DNA of 64,000 nt from Odontesthes bonariensis. Its lineage: Eukaryota > Chordata > Actinopteri > Atheriniformes > Atherinopsidae. The translations under genes were made by a program, and so were the position numbers. Shown here in pieces: positions 38 through 22,900 of this stretch; the first letter of the stretch is position 1; the number at the start of each line of letters is the position of its first letter. The notes under the pieces were generated by a model. The model made no database searches and had not been told where the DNA came from. It worked only from the letters and a program-made list of their open reading frames with translations. The stretch covers positions 1,982,501-2,046,500 of the forward strand of contig NC_134520.1 of NCBI RefSeq assembly GCF_027942865.1, given 5' to 3'.

Positions 38-3000
38 TGCCTCGAGGGAGTGAGACAGCTTGGCTCTACAGCTCGAGTGAAGGCCGGAGGCAGCTGGCAG
101 CCAGCGCCAACTTTCGGCGCCTAGTTATTGTTGCGATGCACAGGAGTCAGGAGTACACAGACATGCAAGCAGTTCAGTCAGAACTCTCACCAGTAGTAAT
201 GGACTTGGCTCCCCCGGGCATGCCAGCCAATCAGCAGGTAAATACACACAATATTCCTTTTTTTTTAAGGCGCTTTTTTAAAACAATGACGATGTTAAGT
301 CATGAGAATAAACACATCCGTGCATCAGTTTGAGCTGTCTGTGTCCCTTAAGGTCCCATTTCTGTCAGTGGGAGGAGATCTCGGCTGGCGAGAGGAGGTC
401 AGCAGGGGTGTGAGTCAGCTCAGTGGGGAGTACTGTGTGGAGAACGTCAGAGGAGAAGATGGAGAGCTGTATCGCAGACTGGTGTTTCTGTCTAACACCG
501 CCCTTGTCCAATCAGAGAGCCGCCTTGTCTCATCAAATACTGGTAATTTGCTTTGTCCTCCCTCTTATTAATCAGTTTATTATATTGTATTTTTCCTCAT
601 ATTTAATCTTTTTTTGTTCATTTTTCAGTGGTCATAACATTTGCAGGAAGAGGTTCCTTGCATTCAATTTGTGCAAACTCCTCTTTAAGATTCAGATGGT
701 TCTGCAACTGATTCCGAGCAGAGGAAACAAAGGAAATGTAAAAAAGACTTTTAGTGTCTTCATGAACCAAATTCACTGGAATTAAAAACTTAAAAGAAAC
801 CTAGAATTTAACGCCAGCAGCAGACCCAAAACATTTGGGATGGGGGCAAAGAAAGACAGGCAAGTTTATGAAATACACAAGTAACAGCATTCTGGACGTT
901 TCTACAATCAACAGGTAAAATGGTGATAGATGAGGATGTCACAATTAGGTGTAAAAGGAGCATCCACCAAATGCCTTTGTTTCTCCAAGCATGGACGGGT
1001 TGTGAGTCACTAATTTGTGCCAAACTCCATCAGAGAATCATCGATCGAGATTGCAAAGAAATTTGGTCTCACAGTAGTGTCCATAGTGGATAGTACTGTG
1101 AGAAGATTCAGGTTGTCTGGGGACATCTCGGTATGGAAAGGCCAAGTACAGAAACCACTGCTGAATGCGCGTTACCTTAATTCTGCTTTACATGAGAAAA
1201 AGCCTTGGCACCATGATTAGTATATAGTGAAAAAATATAGCACGCCAAGGTGTGAGGTACCGATCACTGAAATCGTCCAAAAACCTTTTTAAAGTGTTGC
1301 ATACTCTGGCTTTATATTCGTCAAACTTTATGCATCATCAGCCTTCTGGCTTTCACCTCATTTAGTATTGAATAAAGTGCAATGCATATTGAGCTGGAGC
1401 ACACCTTCAGGTTTCTTCTTCTTCTCGGTCGGGCAGACAGGAGACAGATGTTTAGTGGTCAGATGCTATGTTTTAGCTACTTTTGTGAAATAACTGAAGT
1501 CTGATTTTGCATGCCAAACACTAGAAAGATTGTCCAGGCTGTTCCAAGTAAAACCTGCAGAAGCCTGCGTTTGTTATGGTGTAGGGGTGCGTCAGTGTAC
1601 ATGGCGTGGATGAATGGATGATTTGCATTTGTTCAGAGGTGATTATTGGACTTTTGGAGAGACATATGCTGCCATCAAGGTGACGTCTTATCATGTGAGA
1701 TCCAAGGTTATTTCAGCAGGACAGTGCCAGACGTGGCTTCATAGACACATTGTGTGTTTGACTGGCCTGCCTGAAGTTCAGATCTGGCTTCCACTGAAAA
1801 TGAATGGCCATCATGAAGAGAATGAAACAGGGATGACTTTTGACCGTTGAGCAGCTTAAATCACTGGACACGGGTTTCTTCTTGCAAAACCACAATAATT
1901 AGCATCCTCAGTTCCCCAAATTATTAAAAGATTGAACTAAAAGGAAAGGTCATGGAAAACGATGGTAAATGTGAACGAGTGTGTTACTGGCATTCGATGC
2001 TGGATTGCACAATGTAGTTGATCGTGGAACACGCCGAAAACAAGAACAACAGCGTATTTGTTTGAAGGATAATACTTGTATAATGGTTTGCTGTAATGTA
2101 AATAAGTGAAAGAAATTAGTGTTTGTGTCTTGCAGCATCAAGTCACAAAAAGAAGAACAAAAAGAAGGCCAAGGCGACGTCCTCCGCCCCTCTGTCGGTG
2201 GACAGCGGCTTCCTCTGCTGTGCTCACCATGAGGTCATGGTGGCAGGTCTTGCTCTGCTTGGGGTGGGGATGCTGCAGAGCAAAGGTGTGTGGATTTGTA
2301 CATACTTGGCAGTGTTAGAAGAAGAAGAACCTGCCATGCAATCAGAATCTTTCGACACTCATTCATTCCTCCCTATCTTCCCGATTAGACGTCCCAGTGT
2401 CGGTGCTCCTGGTCGGGCTTGGTGGAGGAGGCCTGCCTCAATTTCTGCGCGACTTTGTGCCCAGTGCAACTGTTGAGGTGGTAGAGCTAGACCCTGTTGT
2501 ACTGGAAGTGGCAAAGGAGTGGTTTGGGTTTCAACCCGACGACCGTTTGACCATCACTCTGGGAGACGGCCTGGAACGCATCTGTGCACTGGAGAAAGAA
2601 GGTTGGTGATGTCAAGGAGAGGCTGCACAATTTGATAAGAATAACTCTACCAACATGCTACTGTGGGCTTCTTCTCCACAGGCGGCCGATTGTTTGATGT
2701 CATCATGTTTGATGTAGACAACAAAGACAGCTCTGTGGGGATGAGCTGTCCACCTGCTGCCTTTGTAGAAATCTCCATACTGCAGAAAGTTTGTAACTTG
2801 CTGACCCCCAGAGGTACAGAATCATTCCTACATTCCTTACTTTAGCTTTAAAAAAAAGAGTTGTGTTTAATTTCCTCTCAATATTATCTTCCCTCATCTC
2901 TCCCTGCCAGGTCTGTTCATACTGAACCTTGTGTGTCGTGACCCAGCGTTGAGGAAAAGCGTCCTTGAGCGCGTGAGCGGTGTGTTTCCCTCTGTCCTCT

Positions 3001-3179
3001 CTCGAAAGATAGCCGAGGAGATCAATGAAGTTCTTCTGTGCTCCTGTGCAGAAAAGGATGCCGCCCATATCCTCCCAACCTTGAGCCAGGCAGCGCAACA
3101 TTTGCAGAGTGCGCTGTGCTCCAACCGCAGGCCTCACATAGACATTGCAGAGCTGTTAAAAGAACTGAAAGTAGAGTAA
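38..3179 (+). CDS. mettl13: eEF1A lysine and N-terminal methyltransferase, 3' part of gene
   Basis: Six exons, partial at the 5' end: 38-237, 353-542, 2136-2285, 2389-2601, 2682-2813 and 2911-3179 (TAA at 3177). All junctions are AG/GT and keep phase, giving about 384 C-terminal residues. The protein is a dual methyltransferase acting on elongation factor eEF1A. In the family the C-terminal domain, the part seen here, methylates the eEF1A N-terminus, and the N-terminal domain (upstream of this window) methylates a lysine. Visible marks are VPFLSVGGDLG in exon 2, a lysine-rich linker in exon 3, the SAM-binding glycine loop VLLVGLGGGGLPQF with the acidic VEVVELDP strand in exon 4, and DVIMFDVDNKD plus GMSCPPAAFVE in exon 5. 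Exon 1 starts inside a codon, so upstream exons lie outside. The neighbour downstream is dnm3 in the same orientation, as in other vertebrates. Confidence 0.95.
543..2135 (+). other. mettl13 intron, no recognisable element
   Basis: A 1.6-kb intron between two clear mettl13 exons. It is AT-rich with short open frames only. I see no coding similarity, inverted repeat or microsatellite that I can name. Confidence 0.6.
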
Positions 3180-3351
3180 AAGTGGCAGCCGGATTGGGAA
3201 AGCAAGGGATGTGTTAGATTTTTAACCGTGTGCCAAGACTGTGTGAAACTACATGTGGAAGACTGAGTGCTTTGACATTTCCATTCGCAGCAATGCACTG
3301 AAAGTATGTGTATGAGCATGTATTATTATTATTAGTCACAATCACATCACT

Positions 3352-3357
3352 ATTAAA
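3352..3357 (+). terminator. possible mettl13 poly(A) signal (ATTAAA)
   Basis: ATTAAA lies 173 bp after the mettl13 stop codon. It is the first good poly(A)-signal variant on the plus strand and lies well before the dnm3 promoter region. The cleavage site is inferred. Confidence 0.4.
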
Positions 3358-3599
3358 CGTTGCTTTCGGTTTTTCTTTGATTTGCCTCTGGTTTCCAGTG
3401 CATGGCACTGTGCACACGCCCTCCCGGGAAAAGAATGCAACAGCGTTATTTACAGTAGATGATACACTCTCAGATACATTCTGTGGCTCCCGTTGCAGTG
3501 TTTATAGGGCTGCTGCGATACCCTACCCACACTGTGTGGGATCTGAAATAACCGTTGGCCTAAGGAGCGAGCGCATTTTGGGTGTCTGGTAATTGGCCA

Positions 3600-4114
3600 T
3601 GAGGTTTGTCTGTCTTCATTTTGTGAGAGGTGGGAGGTGGGGTACAAACTTACTAATGCGCATGCGCAAAGAACTTCAGTCCGTTAGCTGTCAAAGCAGA
3701 ATGTTTTCCTACTGTCCGTGGACCAAAGTCAGCGCAGCGGCGAGTGTCTGAAATGTCTCTAGAGTTGAAGGTAAACGACTCAATGCAGACATTTGGAGTC
3801 TGAGCAGAAGAAAAATGCCTTTTGCGAACTTTTGTGGAGGGGCTGCGATCTTTGAGAACAACTGTGGACACTACCGTCGTAGCAGGATCCCCTTACTCTG
3901 AAGTGCTAACGGCTGGAGAAGTTGCGGACCTTTAAAAGTAAGCGCGAAGAGTACTTTCTTTAAGCTCATTCCGTTTGAATTCCAAAAATGAAAGTATAAC
4001 TTCAGGTAACCAACAGGTATGACAGTTAGGCTGTTAACTAGTGAGGATTAGAACCGGGGAGGGGAAACTGATCGAAAGGAGGGCTGGACAGATCGGAGCT
4101 GGTCTCCTGTTGCG
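3600..4114 (+). promoter_or_regulatory. dnm3 promoter and 5' UTR with NRF1 site
   Basis: The region upstream of the dnm3 start is CpG-richer than its surroundings. It contains the perfect NRF1 palindrome TGCGCATGCGCA at 3657-3668. There is no ORF here related to either neighbour. The transcription start is not determined; the 5' UTR probably lies within roughly 3700-4114. Confidence 0.5.
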
Positions 4115-7100
4115 ATGGGCAACCCCGGGATGGAGGAGCTGATCCCGTTGGTCAACCGCCTCCAGGATGCCCTGAGCGGCGTGGGGCAGAGCTGCAGCCT
4201 CCACCTGCCGCAGATCGCTGTGGTGGGCGGCCAGAGCGCGGGCAAGAGTTCCGTGCTGGAAAACTTTGTGGGCAGGTAAGCCGCACACATTCAACTCTGA
4301 GGTGCAAAAAGTACCTGCGCGTCAGTGTCGGTTGGCTGGGGTTTGGACAAAATTCCGATGTGGCGCAACTTTTATGTTCAATCCAGTTAACAGGTAACGC
4401 CTACCCACTACAAAACCACGAAGGATTTTAGACTTTATTCCCAATTATGACTGAATGAACAATTAAGTGGTTGGATTAATGGATTGCCTAAAGTTAAACC
4501 ATGTAGGCCTGCGGGAGCCGGTGATCAGGACATGCTCAATATTTCCTGAAGCGAGACTTCGTGCAACTTGACTGTGTTCCACTTTCTGTATCGTGGCATC
4601 GAACACAGCATCATGGAATTTTTTTTTTTTTTTTTTTTGCCGGTCTGAAGTGGCGGATGCCGGACATGGCAGTGATTGTGGAACAGGAATCAGAGCAGGA
4701 GTTCATCTAACAGATAAGCACGGAAGGTTTCAGTGGGGCTGAGGCACAGAAGAGGCTAAACTCAGTTCAGCTGAGCAGAACAAAGCTTTGTTGTGTCAGG
4801 TCTTACTTGGGCTTTTAAGAAATGTCGTGCTCCTAAAAAAATAATGGTGAATAGAGCAGCTTGTTTGTGGATAAGCAGGGTTGTTTGGGTAAATCAGAAA
4901 GGCAGCAGAGATGGTTCTGGTGTGAGCTGAGGCTCAGGTTGTCTGTTCTCTGCTCATTGTCTCAGCTTGGGCTTTGTTATGATTGTTGGACTGCAATAGC
5001 AGTTTGATCTGAGACAGGATGCAATAAAACTAACTTCCTGAATAGGATTTTGATAGGAAAGAGGAGGACTATATTTCCCCCTGTGCCTTCTGTTTCTCCA
5101 TCATCAGGTCTGCTTTCAGCTCTGAATGCTTACGTTGATGATAGCAAAGCTTTTCTTGGCCTTTGGGAGGTTTTCAAATGAAAACTAGCGCATTGCCCGC
5201 AGACCACTCAATATAGGCTCATGATGATTTAATCATCATCACAGTTTCAGTGCAGGGGTCACTGCTGCCTGCGCAGAGTTTGAAATGATTAGAAGAGATG
5301 TTGCCAAACTCATGTCTCAGATTATAGACCAGGAGCCCAGAGGGGTCAGCCTAGCTGGGAAGGTTACCACTTTTTATGGGTACTATGATGTCTGGCATGG
5401 TCCCCAGATAGAGGAACGGCATGTCTGCCGGGTTCCCTCTGGTGGGTGTGGCAAGGGGGGGTATAAAACTGGCACCCAAAAAATGGGCTAGGTTAGCTGG
5501 TGAGGTTACCACTTGAAACCTGTTGCAAATTGTTTGTCATGGGCCCCTGATTGAGGAATGGCCACTGCCAGACATTTTTGTTGGTGGGCGGGGCTTGCCA
5601 GACATCATTAACTGGGGGGGGGGAAATGGGCTAGGTTAGCTGGTGAGGTTACCACTTGAAACCTGTTGCAAATTGCTCATCATAGTCCCCTGATAGAGAA
5701 ATGACCACTGCCAGACATTTTTAGTGGTGGGTTACCCCCGGCAGACACCCCCGTACGATGACACCCCCAAAAATGGGCTAGATCAGCTGGTGGGGTTACT
5801 GATTGAAACCTGTTAACAATTGTTTGTCCCCTGGTCCCCTGATTGAGGAATGGTCACTTCCATACATTTTTGTTGGTGGGTTATACCCACGCCAGACACC
5901 CCATTGTGAATGCACCTTCTTGTGAAGTCGCCTGCACACAAAGCGACTGTCATCTTGACCATGTGACCCAAATATAATCAGTTCATGTATTATAGTGTAA
6001 GCACACAAGATTCATTGCAAAAAGGTTGGCCATCTAGAAAGTGTTGGGCTGAATCTCAGATGGCGCACTTGTGCACTTCGGGCACTATGTTTTAGTGCGT
6101 AATTAATATGCCATACGCACTAAAACATGAACACTTCAGTGCACAAGTGCACCATTTGAGATTCAGAGTAGGTCTCAAGATGTAACCTGCACTTCATATG
6201 GAGTGTTGGCAACATACAAGGACTGGAGCAAATCCAAGCACTTGTTCAAAAGTAATGGGCCAAACATAAAGTCGCTCGTGTTAAAAGTCGGTCGTCTTAA
6301 AAGCCTTGCCCTGCGAAATCAAATCTTTTCATGTACCAATCATAGAGCATTACCACACAAAATGTGGTGAAGATCCGTCCACTCTTTCAAAAGTTATAGC
6401 ATTTACTCGAAATATCTGTGGTAGTTGCCAGCAAAAAACATAAAATCTTAATTGCGCGCTGAATAATGTCCTGAAATTTGAATCAACATAAATCCATGTC
6501 ACTTTGTCTACCGAGTCAATTACTAATAGTATTTTCGACAACTAACACCTTGAGTGTTACTTTTTTTTCCTAACACAACGTAAGGGATAAAGGAGCTGAT
6601 CCTTGCCACATGTACAGTAATATCCCATCATCTGAAGGCTTCAGATCACCGTCCTCATTTTCCAGATTTTTCACATTTTTTAAGATCTCAAATTTCTGTG
6701 TTAATTCAATCAATGGGAACGGACTGTTATTTGGATCAAGCAGAAGACTGCTGAAGGTTGGTTCAAACATTTTCTATTATCATGTAATATTAATATTCAT
6801 GAATTTTCCAATTTCTTTATAAATGTAGCCCTATCAGTATTTGCCCCTCCTTGTTGAGTTCACTATTTGCATATGCATGTATGTATGTATGTACGTACTG
6901 TATGTGTGTACATATATGTGTATATCTGAAGGTTGCAAAATCACTGCCTGCAAACCCATTCTTCCAGATATAGGCTTAGGATCTTAGAAACTCATTCAGT
7001 TGATAATTCTGAATATTTAATTGATAGACCTAAGAATTATTTAAGCTTATAGGCCTTCCACAATGAATTCTGGTGGTGACTTGATCATAATCTATCTTGC

Positions 7101-10100
7101 TTCAGTGCGCTGATATGTACTCAGATGGACTGAGACAATGAGGAGGGAGAAGAGCCAACCCAAGGCAATGGCTTCGAAGAAGGACTGCCCCAACAGAGTA
7201 TGCCGCTTATCTGTGGAAGTAATGAAAATGCAGAGGTTAGTACCCTATTTGGGTGTAACTAAACACCTAAACACTGGAACGTACCGAAACGGACAGGAAC
7301 GTACCGAAAACAGACAGAAATGGACCGAAACGGACCCAGATTTAGTAACATACACATTTAAAACTCATATGTATTTAATATTCAATTCAATTCAATTCAA
7401 ATTCAAAAATACTTTTTTTATCCCAGAGGGAAATTAAATGTTGATGTAGCTCAATTAAATTAAAGAGTTATTATAGATGCTGATGGCTGTGGGCAGGAAA
7501 GATTTCCTGTAGCGGTCCGTTTTGCATCCAAACTGAAGAAGCCTTTGACTGAAGAGACTCTGTTTTCTGATAACAGTCTCATGGAGAGGATGTTCAGGGT
7601 TGTCCATAATTCTCTTGATTTTATGCAAAATCCTTCTTTGCATTATTGTCTCCAGAGGTTCCACAGTCGTCCCCAGAACAGAACCAGCCTTCTTTATCAG
7701 GTTGTTGAGTCTTTTTAGGTCCCTGGTTCTGATGCTGATGCCCCAACAGATGACGCAAGAGGAAATGACGCTCTCAACAACAGACTTGTAGAAGATCTGC
7801 AACATCTTGTTGCAAACCTTGAAGGACCTTAGCTTCCTCAAGAAGTACAGTCTGCTCTGTCCTTTCTTGTAGATGGCTTCACTGTTGTGTTTCCAGTCCA
7901 GTCTGTTGTCCACATGAACACCAAGGTATTTATATTCCTCAACCACCTCCACTTCTTCTCCCATGATGGAAACAGGGTTTGATCTGACCCTGTTTCTCCT
8001 GAAATCTACAATCATCTCCTTTGTTTTGTTAACATTCAAGATGAGATGATTGTTCCCACACCATGCCACAAAGCGGTCCACCAGCTCTCTGTACTCAGCT
8101 TCTTGTCCATCTCTGATACACCCGACCACTGCAGAGTCATCTGAATATTTCTGTAGATGACAGGAGTCTGACTTGTACTGGAAGTCTGAAGTGTACAGAG
8201 TGAAAAGGAATGGTGAGAGTACAGTCCCCTGTGGTGCTCCTGTGCTGCTGATCACCTGGTTAGACACACAATTCTTCAGTCTGACAAACTGTGGTCTGTT
8301 TGTCAGGTAGTCATTAATCCAGGTGATTGTTGAGGCCTCCACCTGAGTCTTCTGGAGTTTCAGACTAAGCAGATCAGGCTGGATTGTGTTAAATGCACTG
8401 GAGAAATCAAAGAACATGATCCTCACAGTGCTGCCTGCTTTGTCCAGATGACAGTGGGTTTGTTGAAGCAGGTGTATGATAGCGTCTTCAACTCCAACTC
8501 CATGGCGATAAGCAAACTGCAGGGGGTCCTGATATGTGCTGGTTTGCTTACACAGGTGGGTCAACAGGAGTCTCTCCAGGACCTTCATGATGTGGGATGT
8601 CAGGGCAACAGGTCTGTAGTCATTGATGTCTGAAGGGTGAGTTTTCTTTGGTACCGGAACCAGACAGGATGTCTTCCACAACAGTGGTACCTTCTCTTGG
8701 GTCAAGCTAAGGTTGAAAAGGTGTTGCAGAATCCCACAGAGCTGCTCTGCACAGGCCTTCAGGACTCGGGGGCTGACACCATCTGGACCTGCAGCCTTGT
8801 TCCGGTTCAGTCTCTCCAACTGCCTCTTCACCTGACTTCTAGAAACAGAAAAGTGGGAGGGGGAGGCTAAGGGGAAAGCAGCATCTCCTGATTTGGTTGA
8901 AGACAAACTAGTGGAAGCAGAAGAATCCATGACTGAGGTGGAGGTGGAGATGTTACAGGAAAGCTGTGGGTCAGAGGAGGGTGGGATGTCTCTTTGGCTG
9001 GGAACAGGAGGGGAGGATGGTGAGCTTGTTCCTGAACTGAACCTGTTGAAGAATGTGTTCAGCTCATTTGCTCTGTCCAGACTTCCATCCATCCGATCCT
9101 CCCTCTGCTTGAGGCCTGTGATCTTCTTCATTCCTGACCACACATCTCTGATATTGTTCCTCTGCATTTTACTCTCAAGCTTCTTTCTATACACCTCCTT
9201 GCTCCCTCTGATCTTGACTTTGAGCTGCTTCTGTATACTCCTCAGTAACTCCCTGTCTCGCTCCCTAAAGGCTCTTTTTTTCCTGTTCAATAGTTCCTTT
9301 AGCTCACTGGTGATCCAGGGTTTGTTATTAGGGAAGCATCTCACTGTTCTGGTGGGGATGGTGTTGTCCACACAGAAGTTTATATAGTCAGTCACACACT
9401 CAGTCATGGCATTAATGTCCTCTCCATGTGGCTTACAAAGAGAAATCCAATCGGTTGCATCAAAACAACCCTGTAAGGCTTCTTCAGCTTCCTGTGACCA
9501 CTTTCTAACAGTCCTTTTTGTGACAGGTAGTCTCTGGACAAGGGGTTTATATGCTGAACAGAGAAAAACAAGGTTGTGATCTGATTTACCCAGGGGAGGT
9601 CTTGATTTGGAAATGTATGAATCCTTGACATTTGTGTAAAACAAATCCAATGTCTTGTTTTCTCTGGTAGAGCAGCTGACAAACTGTTGAAAAGTTGGCA
9701 GTGTAGCAGAGAGTGAGGCATGATTAAAATCACCAGATATTGCCACAAAAGAATTGGGGTGTTGTGTCTGTATCTTAGCAACAACGGAACTGATGACATC
9801 ACATGCAGTGTCGGCAACAGCTGAGGGTGGAATGTAAACAGCCACCAAAACAACACTGGTGAACTCTCTTGGCAAATAATATGGACGAAAACTTAGTGCC
9901 AATAGTTCAATGTCAGGACTGCAGAGACGACTCTTCACAGTAACATGTCCTGGGTGACACCATCTGTTGTTGACAAGCACTGCCAATCCACCCCCTTTCC
10001 TTTTCCTGCTACTCTTTAAATCTCGATCTGCTCGTACAGTCAGGAAGCCCGGCAGAGAGACGCTGGAGTCGGGGATATGATCCTGCAGCCATGTCTCAGT

Positions 10101-13100
10101 AAAACACATTATGCTACATTCCCGATATTCTTGCTGAGTCCTTATCAAGGCTAAAAGTTCATCCAACTTGTTAGCTAACGATCTTACATTTCCCATGATG
10201 CAGGATGGCAGAGATGGTTTGAACTTCTTCTTTCTTTCTCTCCTCTTTGCTCCTGCTCTGCATCCACGACGCCTCCTTTTAAATTCCAGTGGGATTTCTG
10301 GCTTCAGTTGTCGAATTATTTCTGCTTTTCCAATGTTAATCAGCTGCTCCCTGTTGTAAACCACCTTGTTGCTATGGTGATGCATCATGACAAAAGAGTA
10401 AAATATACAAAAGTATTGGGAAAAATTAATCCAGCTGCACAGCATCCAAGGCAGTTGTCCAAAAAATGCAATTTCTTCCAAGAAATAACAGGAATGAAAT
10501 TTAGAAAAAAAGAAAAATCTCAATGTGAGGTACAGAGCTACTCCAACATGCTGCCACCCTCAGCAGCGCATTCTAGAACACATATCTAATGATTATAACA
10601 CCCAATTCTTGGGAGGGTTGGGGTTTATTTTAATATTATTTTTTAATGGAAGAATTGGGTGTTATAATCATTAGATATTAAATACATATGAGTTTTAAAT
10701 GTGTATGTTACTAAATCTGGGTCCGTTTCGGTCCATTTCTGTCTGTTTTCGGTACGTTCCTGTCCGTTTCGGTACGTTCCAGTGTTTAGGTGTTTAGTTA
10801 CACCCAAATAGGGTACTAACCTCTGCATTTTCATTACTTCCACAGATAAGCGGCATACTCTGTTGGGGCAGTCCTTCTTCGAAGCCATTGCCTTGGGTTG
10901 GCTCTTCTCCCTCCTCATTGTCTCAGTCCATCTGAGTACATATCAGCGCACTGAAGCAAGATAGATTATGATCAAGTCACCACCAGAATTCATTGTGGAA
11001 GGCCTATAAGCTTAAATAATTCTTAGGTCTATCAATTAAATATTCAGAATTATCAACTGAATGAGTTTCTAAGATCCTAAGCCTATATCTGGAAGAATGG
11101 GTTTGCAGGCAGTGATTTTGCAACCTTCAGATATACACATATATGTACACACATACAGTACGTACATACATACATACATGCATATGCAAATAGTGAACTC
11201 AACAAGGAGGGGCAAATACTGATAGGGCTACATTTATAAAGAAATTGGAAAATTCATGAATATTAATATTACATGATAATAGAAAATGTTTGAACCAACC
11301 TTCAGCAGTCTTCTGCTTGATCCAAATAACAGTCCGTTCCCATTGATTGAATTAACACAGAAATTTGAGATCTTAAAAAATGTGAAAAATCTGGAAAATG
11401 AGGACGGTGATCTGAAGCCTTCAGATGATGGGATATTACTGTACATGTGGCAAGGATCAGCTCCTTTATCCCTTACGTTGTGTTAGGAAAAAAAAGTAAC
11501 ACTCAAGGTGTTAGTTGTCGAAAATACTATTAGTAATTGACTCGGTAGACAAAGTGACATGGATTTATGTTGATTCAAATTTCAGGACATTATTCAGCGC
11601 GCAATTAAGATTTTATGTTTTTTGCTGGCAACTACCACAGATATTTCGAGTAAATGCTATAACTTTTGAAAGAGTGGACGGATCTTCACCAAATTTTGTG
11701 TGGTAATGCTCTATGATTGGTACATGAAAAGATTTGATTTCGCAGGGCAAGGCTTTTAAGACGACCGACTTTTAACACGAGCGACTTTATGTTTGGCCCA
11801 TTACTTTTGAACAAGTGCTTGGATTTGCTCCAGTCCTTGTATGTTGCCAACACTCCATATGAAGTGCAGGTTACATCTTGAGACCTACTCTGAATCTCAA
11901 ATGGTGCACTTGTGCACTGAAGTGTTCATGTTTTAGTGCGTATGGCATATTAATTACGCACTAAAACACAGTGCCCGAAGTGCACAAGTGCGCCATCTGA
12001 GATTCAGCCCAACACTTTCTAGATGGCCAACCTTTTTGCAATGAATCTTGTGTGCTTACACTATAATACATGAACTGATTATATTTGGGTCACATGGTCA
12101 AGATGACAGTCGCTTTGTGTGCAGGCGACTTCACAAGAAGGTGCATTCACAATGGGGTGTCTGGCGTGGGTATAACCCACCAACAAAAATGTATGGAAGT
12201 GACCATTCCTCATCAGGGGACCAGGGGACAAACAATTGTTAACAGGTTTCAATCAGTAACCCCACCAGCTGATCTAGCCCATTTTTGGGGGTGTCATCGT
12301 ACGGGGGTGTCTGCCGGGGGTAACCCACCACTAAAAATGTCTGGCAGTGGTCATTTCTCTATCAGGGGACTATGATGAGCAATTTGCAACAGGTTTCAAG
12401 TGGTAACCTCACCAGCTAACCTAGCCCATTTCCCCCCCCCCCAGTTAATGATGTCTGGCAAGCCCCGCCCACCAGCAAAAATGTCTGGCAGTGGCCATTC
12501 CTCAATCAGGGGCCCATGACAAACAATTTGCAACAGGTTTCAAGTGGTAACCTCACCAGCTAACCTAGCCCATTTTTTGGGTGCCAGTTTTATACCCCCC
12601 CTTGCCACACCCACCAGAGGGAACCCGGCAGACATGCCGTTCCTCTATCTGGGGACCATGCCAGACATCATAGTACCCATAAAAATTGGTAACCTTCCCA
12701 GCTAGGCTGACCCCTCTGGGCTCCTGGTCTATTAACATACGAGCATTGGCTGGTGTCGGTTTGCTTTGCCTTTGTTTTCGTGTGTGTGTGTATATTCTTT
12801 TCCAACTCAGTCTTTCTCATCTAACAGAGACTTCCTCCCACGGGGTTCAGGGGTTGTCACTCGCAGACCTTTAATCCTCCAGCTGCTACATTCAAACACA
12901 GGTAACTGCTTGTGCAGCTCACTTCCAATTTCTAGTGTTTATCCAAAGATACCACAAGGTGGCAGTATGATAACTTACATCTCAGTGCTTGAGTCATCAT
13001 CTAATATAAGTCATATAAAGTTAGTGTGTCCTACATGCTTTGCTTATAGATTTATAGACAGAAAGATATTATCAAATCAAATCAAATCAAATATATAAGT

Positions 13101-16100: not shown

Positions 16101-19100
16101 TATCAGAAACATACACGGCGTCAGGTGCAGTGCAGAGTGTGGAGTGCTTTTACTGTACATCATTCACTGTTTTTTTTTTTTTATTTAATGTTTTTTCTTT
16201 TCCCTACAGGACAGGCTTATTCACTCCTGACCTGGCCTTTGAAACTATAGTGAAGAAACAAATATCGAATATAAAAGGGCCATGTATAGAATTTGTTGAC
16301 ATGGTCAGTCAGGAACTAATTAGCACGGTGTACCATTGCATCAGCAAGGTATGAGCGTGCTTGTGTCATAAACACATTCTGGCACGTGCAGGATATTCAC
16401 ACGGTGTCGAAACAGTGTCATTTTCTGCTGTTTTTCCCTCCGCAGCTCAGCTGCTTTCCAAAGCTGCGCGATGAGACAGAGAGGATTATTATCACTGAGA
16501 TACGGGAGCAAGAGAGTAAATGCAGAGACCAGGTCGCTCGCACACATTTACCCAGTGCAATCAAAACACAGCTGCAGATGATTCAGCTCCCTTGAAATTC
16601 TTTTTCTCCAATTAATGTATGTCTCCCCTGTTCAGGCCGTGTTGCTTATTGACATCCAGATCGCCTACATAAACACCAAACACGAAGACTTTGTTGGCTT
16701 CACGAAGTGAGCGACCTCTTCAGTTTTAAAGTTAATAGAAACAAAACGTGCATAAAAACTGTAACTTGCTAAGATTTAACCCTATTATGTGTTATTTATC
16801 CCTCTCAGTTCCCAACAGGTGCCGAATCAAAGCTCCGTGAAGGCTGTTGCACGGATTGCAGGGAACCAGGTGAGGTTGCATCATCACTCTCAGGCCAAAA
16901 GTGCATGAAAGTGATTACTTAAAGTTGCATTTACTGATCAGAATTATGTGTCCATGTGTTGGGAAAAAGTCACACCTGCGTATTTGTGCACAACTGTGTC
17001 CAAAAGCTCAAAAAGGGATTTAAAAAAAAAAAATATATATATATATATATTTTTTTTTTACAGCATTGGGGAAGGGCATGAACTTCCCCAATGCTACGTC
17101 ACCATCCCATATGTTAGCCATTAATCTGCATTAATCTGCATTCATAGCCACATATAAATCAGAGTTTTTGTGAAGTTGTGGGGAAAATGAAAAACACTGT
17201 CCCAGTTCGACTGTGCTACGTCAGTAGCCTTGATGTATGATGCTGATGATGTTGAACAGCAGCACTTTGCAACCACAGCTTAGAAAAATTAAAAAGGACG
17301 TCAGTTATTTATACGGTCTCTCATGCTGCTTTTATAATAGTTAATTTCTAAAAGATCAGCATAAACACCCCAAAATGAAAGTAGAAATTGGCTCCACGTT
17401 AATGTTGCTACTTCATCTCCTGTTTTCTCCAGGGTGGGGCCCATCCCTCAAGGCTGATAGTAGGAAACCAATCTCTTAAAGCCTTCTCTTTACCGCTGCC
17501 TCTGCGCTCAATGTGTGTGTGCAGGATTCAAGCTTAAGGGTTGTGGGTTAACATGCCGCTGACGGCAGCGAACGTGCACTCTGTCGAAAAGGCTTCTCGT
17601 ATCTCTCTGAATCCGATCAAATCTGATCACCTGCAACTGGCACGCTGCTAATGCCCCAAACCTCTTTGGCTCTTTTCTTGTTCACAGTGCCTTCTCTGCT
17701 CTAATACGATAATCTTTATTTTGTAGAAGTTCCTCTGTTCCGTAAATACGTACAGATGTTTAAAAAAAAAAAAAAAGAGTTACTCATTTCCAGGATGTAT
17801 ATGTCATATCTTTGCATGATGTCATATTTCCTGTAGCTTTACTCGTTGCACATCTTTCCTCTACAGTGCCTCTCTCGTCACCCCTGCCTGGTCTCTTCCA
17901 TCCTGTTTTCTCCAGATGTGATGTAGCGACTCTTGTGTCTATGCTCACTGTGTTGTCCTTTATCCATGTATCTAGTGCTCTCTTTGATCACTTCTGCCCA
18001 ACTTGTGGTCAGTGAAATGTTCTGGTGATTGTGCCAACCTGCCAGACTGCATAACATGCATTTCACAAGTTTTCCACTCTTTTTTTTTTTTTTTTCCCTC
18101 CTACATTAACTGTTTCAGTTTCAGGCCTTCATAGCTTCATATAGCTTCCTACAGACCTGTCCTTTCAACTCTTCTCTGCCGGTCTTGTCAGTGTTGTCAT
18201 GTCAGCTCTTTATCCTTGGCTGTTCATACGCAGGTCATACGCAAGGGCTGGCTGACCATCAGCAACATTGGCATCATGAAAGGCGGAGCCAAGGAATTCT
18301 GGTTCATCCTCTCTGCAGAAAGCCTGTCCTGGTTCAAAGATGAGGAGGTGAGGCCCTCACTTTCTTTTATTATCTATTAAGTTATTTTTCTTCTTATTAT
18401 GCTCACTCTTATTATGAGGACTGGCATGCTAGCTCTTCAATATGATCGAAAGTAGTGAAGCCAAAACGCAGCGGCCCAGACTGTTCATCACAAGTTTATT
18501 AAAGCAAATCACAACTTGAAACAGCATGTTAAGTGGTAGACTCTGAGAACCAAGAAGAAAAGAAATCCCTTAACTTATTGTTATCGGAGCTTGAAAAAAA
18601 AGCCCCCAGCCGTCTAATTGAAGAAGGTGTCAGTGCTTTTCTGATGTCAGTGGGGCTGCCATCTGTCTGCCTGTCTGTGCCTGCTGTACAGGAGCAGAAG
18701 GTCTGCACAGCAAGTGTAGACAGGCAGACACACCACAACAGTCTCATCCGGTCACAGCTGATGTTGTTGGAAGAGGAAACGGCCGAATATCGGGATGGAA
18801 ATCAGAAGTGGGGAAATATGCTCCAGCATTCATATATGGACACAAACAAGCGTCTGTAAACATTTCCATCTCAGTGAAAACACAGAAGATAATTACAGAT
18901 ATTCCTGAGGTGTGTAGGCTCCCCCTTTATTGTTTAATTGAATTAATTGAATTAATTGTCTAATGGAGTGGCTGGTCGAAACATTTATTGGAATCCTTTC
19001 ACAAATGCAGCACTAGAATGGCCGGAGGACCATGTTGTTAAACTAAACAAAGCGGCACCATCTTTATGGAAATGTTCTGACCGCAATGCATGCACAACTG

Positions 19101-19926: not shown

Positions 19927-22900
19927 AGCCAAGCTTCTGCTTCTTCTCTCTCACAGTTCCCGCTCTCATAACTCTCGCCCACACTACCTCCACATACATT
20001 TCTTTTTTCTTTGACTCCTGCCCCCTTTTCCTTTCTCTTCCTTCTGCCTCTATTGCCTTTTACTCCTCCTTACTCTGCCTCTTTCTGTCTGTCTCACCCT
20101 CTGTCTTTTTCTCCCCCTCTCTGTGGTTGGCAGTCTCCCTGGGACTGTGCACATTCCTGGCTGGAAAATCTGAAGCTTTGTCCAAACACCAGCGTCCAAG
20201 ATCTGCTCAGAGAAATCCCACATGGCTGTTTCTACATTGCAGACCTCCTCTTTTTGACCCCCCCCCCCCCCCCCCCTCCTTCTAACTCCTCCACAGCGTC
20301 TCTCACAAACTCCCCCTCTTCTTCATCCCCAAAATCTACTCTTCCATCTCCCCTCACCCTTCCTGAGTCGATTACCTCCATACACACAGTTTTTTTCGTT
20401 TCTTTGAGGCTGTGCACTACATCTGCTTTCTATGCACTACAGTATTGATACCCTGCACTGACCTCATACTGAGAGTGCAGAGTTTAATCTCCACAGCACT
20501 GAGCAGACATACATTCCTTCACCCCTCGGCTGCCAGGGCTCCACCAAGCAGCCTGAAGAAAAACAGACGGCCCATGCCTATGCACTCAATCTACATGGGC
20601 TCCTCTGTGTGTATGTGCATGTGTGAGGCCTGCTCCACATCTCAAATCCATTAGTCTGTAGGAAGTTGGAGGGGGGGCCACCCTGATGTATGATTCTTCA
20701 CGACCACCCTGACATCGCTGAAAATATAACATACACAAGCATGCAGACACATATGCATACATTCTTATAGAAAGCAGAGCCACAATGTCTGAGGATGCAA
20801 CATTGCCAGTCAGATGCACATGCAAACACTCCAAAAAACCTGCTGCGTGAAACAAATGTTGACTTTCAAGGTTCTATACAGTAAATACATATAGACTATG
20901 CTCCGCTAACTACCTAGTTCGTAGTTTTCCTAGTTTTAGACAAAAAATCTGCTAGTTATAAGTTAAACCCTCTCTTGGTTGTCCGTAAACCTCTCTGCCT
21001 TTAACATTTACCCGCTCTTTACAAAGACACTTAATTCAAGCTCAAAAATGCTGCAAAATGGAGGAGATATTTCTTGACCTAATGCAGAGTTGATAACAAT
21101 GTTTTGGAGGAATGAATGCATTTAAAAGTGAACGCACATTTAAAGACATCTGCACAATAAAAATGAGAGAATACGAGACCCTATATGTGCCTCTGTTTAG
21201 AGAACATGCAGGTTTCCGTGTTGTCCTGTATGAGCAGATGTTACTAGTGTAGGCTGCTGAGGCACTTCCATGCACAGTCTAACCAATGTGCAGACTACTG
21301 TACACCAGAAAGATCCTGAACAGGTAGTCTGAACACTGGGATGACGGAGCAGGACCCTTTTTCACTTTTTCTTCTCTTCAGACTTGCTTTTTCCATCTCT
21401 GGCTGTTTGCTAGCGGTCTCGCCTGATGTGGAGAGTTGTCAAAAAGGTTTCCTCTGATATTCTGTTCTTTTTCCATTATCCGGTGTCAGCGCTTGGTCGC
21501 AGTGTAAGCGGTCTACACACACATCAGACATCCACGCCAATGGCTGTCCCTCTTGTAGAGATGTTAGCGCATCGTGGGTCGGCCGTCCGCAGGACTGCGT
21601 CCCGGCGTAGTATCCAGTCTTGACGTGGCACATTCACTCATTTAGCTAGGGATCTGCCTGTCCACTCAGGGAAGGCATAAGGAAATAAGGGGAGTGAGAG
21701 AAGGAGAGAGAGTTGGGGAGGAACTTAGCAGCCATATATGGGTTGATGGGACCCATGGGGAATCAACTTTTGGACTGGTCTGGAGTTTCTCCCCATTTCT
21801 GCTGCACGCTCTCTCCTGCTCTCTCTGTTCCTCAAAGTTTCCTTGACTACTATTGCAATTTCACCCCCTTCTATTCTTCTATCCACCTCTTTCCCTCCTC
21901 TTCCTCTCGTTCTCATCTCTACTTTCTATTTTCTACTCCATCCGAGCACCCTATACTCACTCCAGTCTCCTCCTCCTCTGTCCAAAGCGATCCCAGATGT
22001 TGCTGTGTGAGCGCCAATCGCGTTCTGTCATTTCGTTTTTTCGACGTCTGTTACAGGAAGTGGGCCTCTTTGGAAAAAAGGGAAAGGGGAGCAAAGGAAG
22101 AGAGTCGAAGGGTTCAGGGGAGCCCTGTGAGAGGGAAGATTGAAATGTACTGTCACATCTCATCCCATATGCGGGCACTTGCTGAGATGTGGGCACATAT
22201 GAGCGCATCTTTACACAAACTCTGTAGCGCAAACAAGATTTAGGACACTTTTTCTGTGGAGGCCAGTTGTTCTCATTACTACATCCATGGCTGTTCCTAT
22301 TACTAAACTCTCTGGAAGGCCTCAACCCAAAGGTTAGTCAGAGGGAGCAGGCTGGGCAAGAGAGACAAGGGGGAAGGGCTTCACTTTAGGAGAAATGTTG
22401 TGTTAGAGCTTCACTCTTGAGTAATGACTTTCACATGTGGGCCCGGCTTCTTTTGCTTTTCTTTTTTCCTTTCTTTTTTTTTTTTCTAACTGCTTCTCTC
22501 ATTGCTTTCCTCCCTGTTTCAGGTCTCTGTTGTACTTTGCCTCCATACTGTCTGGTTCTCCTCACATCCACTCCTCCAACTGTTATCTGTCATTCATAAG
22601 ATGGAGAACAGTTGGAGGATGATGGAGGGTGATGACAGACTATAGACTTATGGCATCTCTTTGCCTGTCTTTCTTCCTTCTCTTTTCTCTCTCTCCTACC
22701 GATGTGAGGGTTGTTAATGTGAAACACGGCGTCAGGCAGAAACATCTTATACGAACTCGGATGCTCTTCTAGTACAGTGGTCCACATGTCCAGCCTGCAT
22801 CACCTCGCCCTCTGAAACTTTTCCCACTACAGTTCAAGTTTCTTGGCCCTTCACTCTACTCTAGGCGCAGGCTGAAAATTATTTACTACCAGACACAACT

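Follow-up and report, generated by a model that had tools for sequence, protein, structure and literature searches.

Foldback (FB) transposons have long terminal inverted repeats (TIRs) with tandem repeats. Long palindromic sequences are unstable. When their arms are nearly identical, the cause may be youth or gene conversion, two histories that are often indistinguishable. In Galileo of D. mojavensis, the TIRs grow by taking in internal sequence in inverted orientation (TIR1-F1-F1-TIR2), and the TIRs within one copy are 98-100% alike, for which recombination and conversion were proposed (in the part of PMC3573991 drawn on here). In Tetris, two complete copies each have repeats that cluster with one another rather than with those of the other copy, and homogenisation was suggested (in the part of PMC4079207 cited here). 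Recombination between the TIRs of insertion sequences is, from the portion used here, the subject of a further report (PMC3004938). The element described in this study lies in a window of 64,000 nucleotides on contig C20 of the 945-Mb Odontesthes bonariensis genome. It resembles Galileo, a member of the P superfamily, in its long and internally repetitive inverted ends, the extension of its arms and the likeness of the arms within a copy, as far as these are covered in the cited part of that report. Like Tetris it has long TIRs with tandem repeats, but the Tetris TIRs, up to 1,735 bp in the cited part of PMC4079207, surround a middle domain, whereas only a 39-bp loop is found here.

The host gene is dnm3, since matches to dynamin exons occur on the plus strand (4115-4276 for exon 1 and 12826-12900 for exon 2) together with antisense mir-214 (18649-18747) and mir-199 (21271-21350), a pair that we take to be a marker of this gene. 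On the plus strand, mir-214 also scored above the Rfam gathering score at 18647-18745, more weakly than on the minus strand. Most of intron 1 is taken up by the element, whose right end lies ~95 bp upstream of exon 2, in agreement with the intronic placement given by the first-pass annotation.

Self-BLASTN and the target duplications delimit the whole element at 5325-12731 (plus strand), which is a non-autonomous DNA transposon with a nested LINE. Its ends read TAGACC..GGTCTA and are flanked by a 3-bp target duplication, which by flank comparison of the two-ended copies is TTA in the window copy (5322-5324 and 12732-12734). The outer left arm (5325-7381, 2,057 bp, plus strand) and the sequence at 10675-12731 form an inverted match of ~2,058 bp with 99.7% identity, far beyond chance; in the BLASTN self-comparison (10675-12732 against 7381-5324), 2,053 of 2,059 columns were identical, with four mismatches and two gaps. 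Because each arm carries one of these single-base gaps, the arms show no net indel, and the coordinates of the arm pairs sum to 18056, so that the near-perfect inverted arms noticed from the letters alone were confirmed by alignment. The innermost inverted pair (10582-10610 and 10650-10678) is a perfect 29-bp match enclosing the 39-bp loop (10611-10649), which likewise upholds the loop proposed for the structure before the LINE arrived. Its left member is the innermost part of the left arm (plus strand), severed from the remainder by the LINE; the right arm occupies 10650-12731 (2,082 bp, minus strand). These pieces fit a single arm pair divided by the LINE, with ~2.08 kb on each side of the loop once the LINE is removed. 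The single-stranded DNA fold of 10520-10760 was much stronger than those of shuffled sequences (z -6.4).

Three tandem subterminal repeats of ~145 bp lie in the left arm at 5475-5902 (plus strand) and are mirrored at 12154-12581. Farther inward, near arm position 1800, an acidic N-terminal frame that forms the start of a gene was read by eye; this first-exon remnant of a lost transposase-like gene (7125-7235, plus strand, limits also by eye) is interrupted in the window copy and open in the sibling copies L012 and L017. The LINE (7382-10581, minus strand) has an uninterrupted open frame of 1,034 aa, and its assignment to L2 is the label of the first-pass annotation alone. Its insertion duplicated ATAT, and one copy of this duplication adds the final four bases of the outer left arm, at left-arm positions 2054-2057.

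The arms also contain sequences found elsewhere in the genome. A 118-bp palindrome at 6049-6166, mirrored at 11890-12007, is probably a nested MITE: 102-121-bp pieces of it match at least 12 places outside the transposon family with 97-100% identity, and this separate small family is therefore also young. A GTACCGAAACGGAC-type short repeat at 7265-7366 occurs in tandem on contig C13 and as inverted pairs on C3 and C1 among the matches listed, and possibly represents another small element family.

To find other copies, the terminal 156 bp was searched genome-wide, giving 28 matches (28 of 28 candidates scored); a search for a 26-base end pattern, at most three mismatches being allowed, gave 26. 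All of these fall into sixteen places (the window copy W, L009-L012 and L015-L025), a count in which L013 and L014 are parts of the L025 copy and which excludes fragments without the terminal 156 bp; whole-arm searches scored the best 40 of 98 and the best 40 of 63 candidates. The family thus has copies at fifteen places besides the window, many of them decayed. Ten copies have both ends, and in eight of these the 3-bp duplication is perfect and different each time (TTA, CTG, GCA, AAG, CAG, GAA, TAT and GTA). The remaining two, L011 and L025, show one mismatch in the duplication, and L016 and L025 have an altered base at the first position of the element. When duplication lengths of 1 to 12 were compared over the ten copies, 3 bp alone fitted, save for an agreement of 1 bp in L019 and L025. 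The inference of transposition from the TTA flanks therefore holds through the 3-bp duplications at the ends, but any specificity for TTA does not: with eight triplets in eight copies, TTA is the duplication of the window copy only and no target rule.

PIF/Harbinger elements target TTA or TAA. The present family departs from this rule, as its duplications also include CTG, GCA, AAG, CAG, GAA, TAT and GTA. The 7-bp duplication of a Galileo-type P element is not found either among lengths 1 to 12 in the ten copies, which give 3 bp; unlike Galileo, with its 7-bp duplications and P transposase, the present family combines 3-bp duplications with a different transposase-like remnant.

Comparison of the copies separated palindromic from non-palindromic forms. 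In non-palindromic copies, for example L011, L012 and L017, the inverted ends span ~577 bp or less and enclose gene remnants. On one side, the inverted end is followed by arm positions 577-1877 and then by ~1.05 kb of different sequence. This inner stretch runs collinear in L011, L012, L016, L017, L019, L022 and L024, although partial in some, and contains the 3' end of a gene. In palindromic copies the arms extend farther into the 5' side, to position 2087, and the 3' part is missing. Internal sequence has thus been recruited into the TIRs in inverted orientation, as seen from the ~577-bp ends of the siblings against the ~2.08-kb arms of 5' sequence. The 39-bp loop is present with identical sequence at four of the sixteen places (W, L009, L010 and L018), and because of this identity the simplest reading is a single origin of the palindrome followed by its mobilisation. 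Two long arms are retained in W and in L009 (contig C28), whose right arm is without one of the subterminal repeats; the loop copies L010 and L018 have largely lost one arm.

Several copies carry further rearrangements. L014 (3181-3193) and L015 (5484-5499) share a joint of arm positions 788/1245 in opposite orientation, linked in L015 and L025 via a short AT-rich stretch; the joint may stem from a deletion in the middle of the palindrome or from another fold-back event, in a derivative that itself moved. In L018, nearly the same AT-rich filler of ~13 bp occurs at both joints (~1512-1526 and 3260-3275) in opposite orientation, and an inverted arm piece (1543-1186) stands in place of the left end. 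Arm positions 292-725 are deleted in L022 and L024, a deletion bounded on one side by the nested MITE.

The gene whose start is preserved in the arm ends in the ~1.05-kb inner sequence, where its last exon carries an acidic tail at its end. This transposase-like exon is kept in five sibling copies, two of them partial, and in the family copies the end exons are all that is left of the gene. A search with the 108-aa last exon returned the five copies of the family itself and seven distant matches with 33-34% identity in open frames of 215-597 aa. The exon and the ORF of this relative were 34% identical over 61 aa (pair score E 1e-8). The relative family, from the same genome, has ends (TAGTC..GACTA) close to TAGACC..GGTCTA and, from flanks read by eye, 3-bp duplications (TAT, AAT and TAA) in three copies; one copy, L042, has four plus-strand open frames from 1002 to 5309. 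The Pfam search of the last exon and the relative's ORFs gave no named transposase, the matches of the ORFs being a CXC (TCR) domain below the cut-off and still weaker ones alone, and the relative's 596-aa ORF had no nuclease match in Pfam. Its PDB search returned three matches alone, to an unrelated protein (E 0.088 to 0.16), and its single-sequence fold was unusable (pLDDT 35). The relative's long-ORF type is one that we take to be Academ-associated, and the family is tentatively Academ-like, based on the duplication length and on the type of protein. Target duplications of the AcademX lineage of Academ are 3 or 4 bp in the cited part of the source (PMC10045372), and those found here are 3 bp, perfect in eight of the ten two-ended copies and with one mismatch in the other two; the relative, too, joins 3-bp duplications with similar ends and long ORFs. 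Academ elements carry a DDE transposase and an XPG-like nuclease; the copies here hold end exons only, and the Academ likeness is one of duplication length and ORF type.

Where the first-pass annotation had spoken of an unidentified enzyme, the last exon in five siblings narrows the identity, with the superfamily still tentative. Its proposed genome search for other copies and a full-length relative yielded fifteen further places and the long-ORF relative family, but no autonomous copy of the family itself was found among the sixteen places with terminal sequence. The 9.6-kb L025 copy on contig C26 was rejected as an autonomous element, as its length is due to an inserted retroelement with Pao-type peptidase matches.

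Youth and conversion can be separated at this locus because the single-arm siblings, together with another palindrome that shares the loop, provide an outgroup state for each site. An alignment of 26 arm pieces from 15 places was used, with the L021 fragments, the left-side pieces of L015, the left end of L025 and the broken left and short right ends of L018 left out, and with the left piece of L010 including a poorly aligning joint. Sites were scored where at least three other pieces were present and at least 70% of them agreed; three sites at which both arms had changed differently are in neither the shared nor the one-arm counts. Over 2,070 sites, the window copy had 10 private changes present in both arms, two more shared changes also seen elsewhere and four changes in one arm. 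The 10 private changes span arm positions 98 to 1951 and occur in none of the other pieces that cover these sites (4 to 20 at each). L009, in contrast, had no private shared change, one shared change also seen elsewhere and 19 one-arm changes over 1,930 sites (Fisher p about 1e-5), a contrast based wholly on the two palindromes with both long arms. In seven non-palindromic copies, four shared and 150 one-arm changes were counted over 2,476 sites, although misalignment of the subterminal repeats may have raised the one-arm counts in L012, L022 and L011. A FastTree analysis of the 14 of 26 arm pieces longer than 900 letters placed the window arms as sisters (support 0.998, tips 0.001, stem 0.006), and the arms of L009 were not grouped together.

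Ten identical private changes would hardly arise independently in both arms, which argues for copying between arms, and their presence in the window copy against none in L009 argues that it took place after the copies had separated. The comparison thus shows that one window arm was copied onto the other after divergence from L009; in this the locus differs from Galileo, as the outgroup copies date the likeness of the arms to copying after the copies separated. The unstable structure would still be near-perfect because one half was recently copied over the other. A newborn palindrome, with too little time for its arms to diverge, would agree with arms that differ by just four substitutions and two single-base indels, but we consider it improbable, given that the same loop exists at three other places, that the L009 arms are 19 substitutions apart and that the palindrome must be older than the 10 private changes carried by both window arms. 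Of the earlier alternatives, very young or kept uniform, the sequence comparison favours uniformity through arm-to-arm copying, and with the loop at four of sixteen places the palindrome is not newly born. The copying itself may have taken another form, in which a half element that had lost one arm rebuilt the palindrome by fold-back copying at the same loop. L018 and L010 are existing copies of such a kind, with the loop and one arm largely gone, the shared changes extend over arm positions 98 to 1951, and at no scored site is an unconverted patch needed; however, long-tract conversion predicts the same pattern and would likewise leave the loop unchanged, and we regard such a rebuilding as quite possible without thinking it likely.

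Long palindromes are a known source of assembly errors, and one arm might be a false inverted copy. This is hardly credible here, because the arms stop exactly at the 3-bp duplications and L009, on contig C28, is another palindrome with this loop but with different arm changes; the six differences between the window arms and the single LINE that they enclose speak against it too. Retention of the hairpin for a function in dnm3, as a dsRNA source or an editing target, would suit its position in intron 1 of a protein-coding gene, where a transcript could pair over 2 kb. Against this, the family occupies fifteen other places, with many copies decayed, and the arms now stand a 3.2-kb LINE apart, which makes such retention very unlikely; no host function in dnm3 is indicated by these comparisons.

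The nested LINE bears on the timing of the copying between arms. It belongs to a young and highly copied family, with 2,676 first-look candidates in the genome, of which the forty scored, the window place included, were all 99-100% alike. Compared with three relatives, it had 7 private differences in 2,001 bases, the relatives having 6, 7 and 7. One-arm changes (4 in 4,162 bases) are rarer than the private LINE differences (7 in 2,001; p 0.047, weak), and the last arm copying is therefore possibly younger than the LINE, although the private differences may include some that predate the insertion. An in-place rewriting of the arms later than the LINE insertion, with uniformity kept by conversion across the 3.3-kb spacer and a tract ending at the LINE, is a reading we hold as doubtful.

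Taken as a whole, a history of inverted duplication of the 5' end, mobilisation, arm-to-arm copying in the window lineage and LINE insertion appears probable to us. From the anatomy, the palindrome would have been born during break repair or abortive gap repair, when a strand folded back, perhaps by way of a short inverted repeat, and was extended along the 5' end as far as its tip, leaving both ends as the same 2.1 kb of 5' sequence, inverted, around the 39-bp loop. The product would have kept two working ends and could move by a transposase acting in trans, an enzyme that we infer as no autonomous copy of the family was found. Mobilisation would account for the several copies observed with the same loop and for their decayed derivatives. 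After the copies had separated, as the shared private substitutions show, one arm of the window copy served as template for the other along at least 1.85 kb, presumably by gene conversion or by a new fold-back copy. The LINE went into the left arm close to the loop and interrupts the hairpin.

Arm extension and alike arms are already known from Galileo, and what is unusual here is the clarity of the history and the nearly pure palindromic end state. The process looks like one of the Galileo kind in another superfamily and host. In a transposon with 3-bp duplications, the inverted ends expanded, as in Galileo of flies, until little else remained, and the element was still copied to several places. 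If the arms were indeed rewritten after the LINE landed, a 2-kb palindrome in the intron of a gene would still be being kept uniform.
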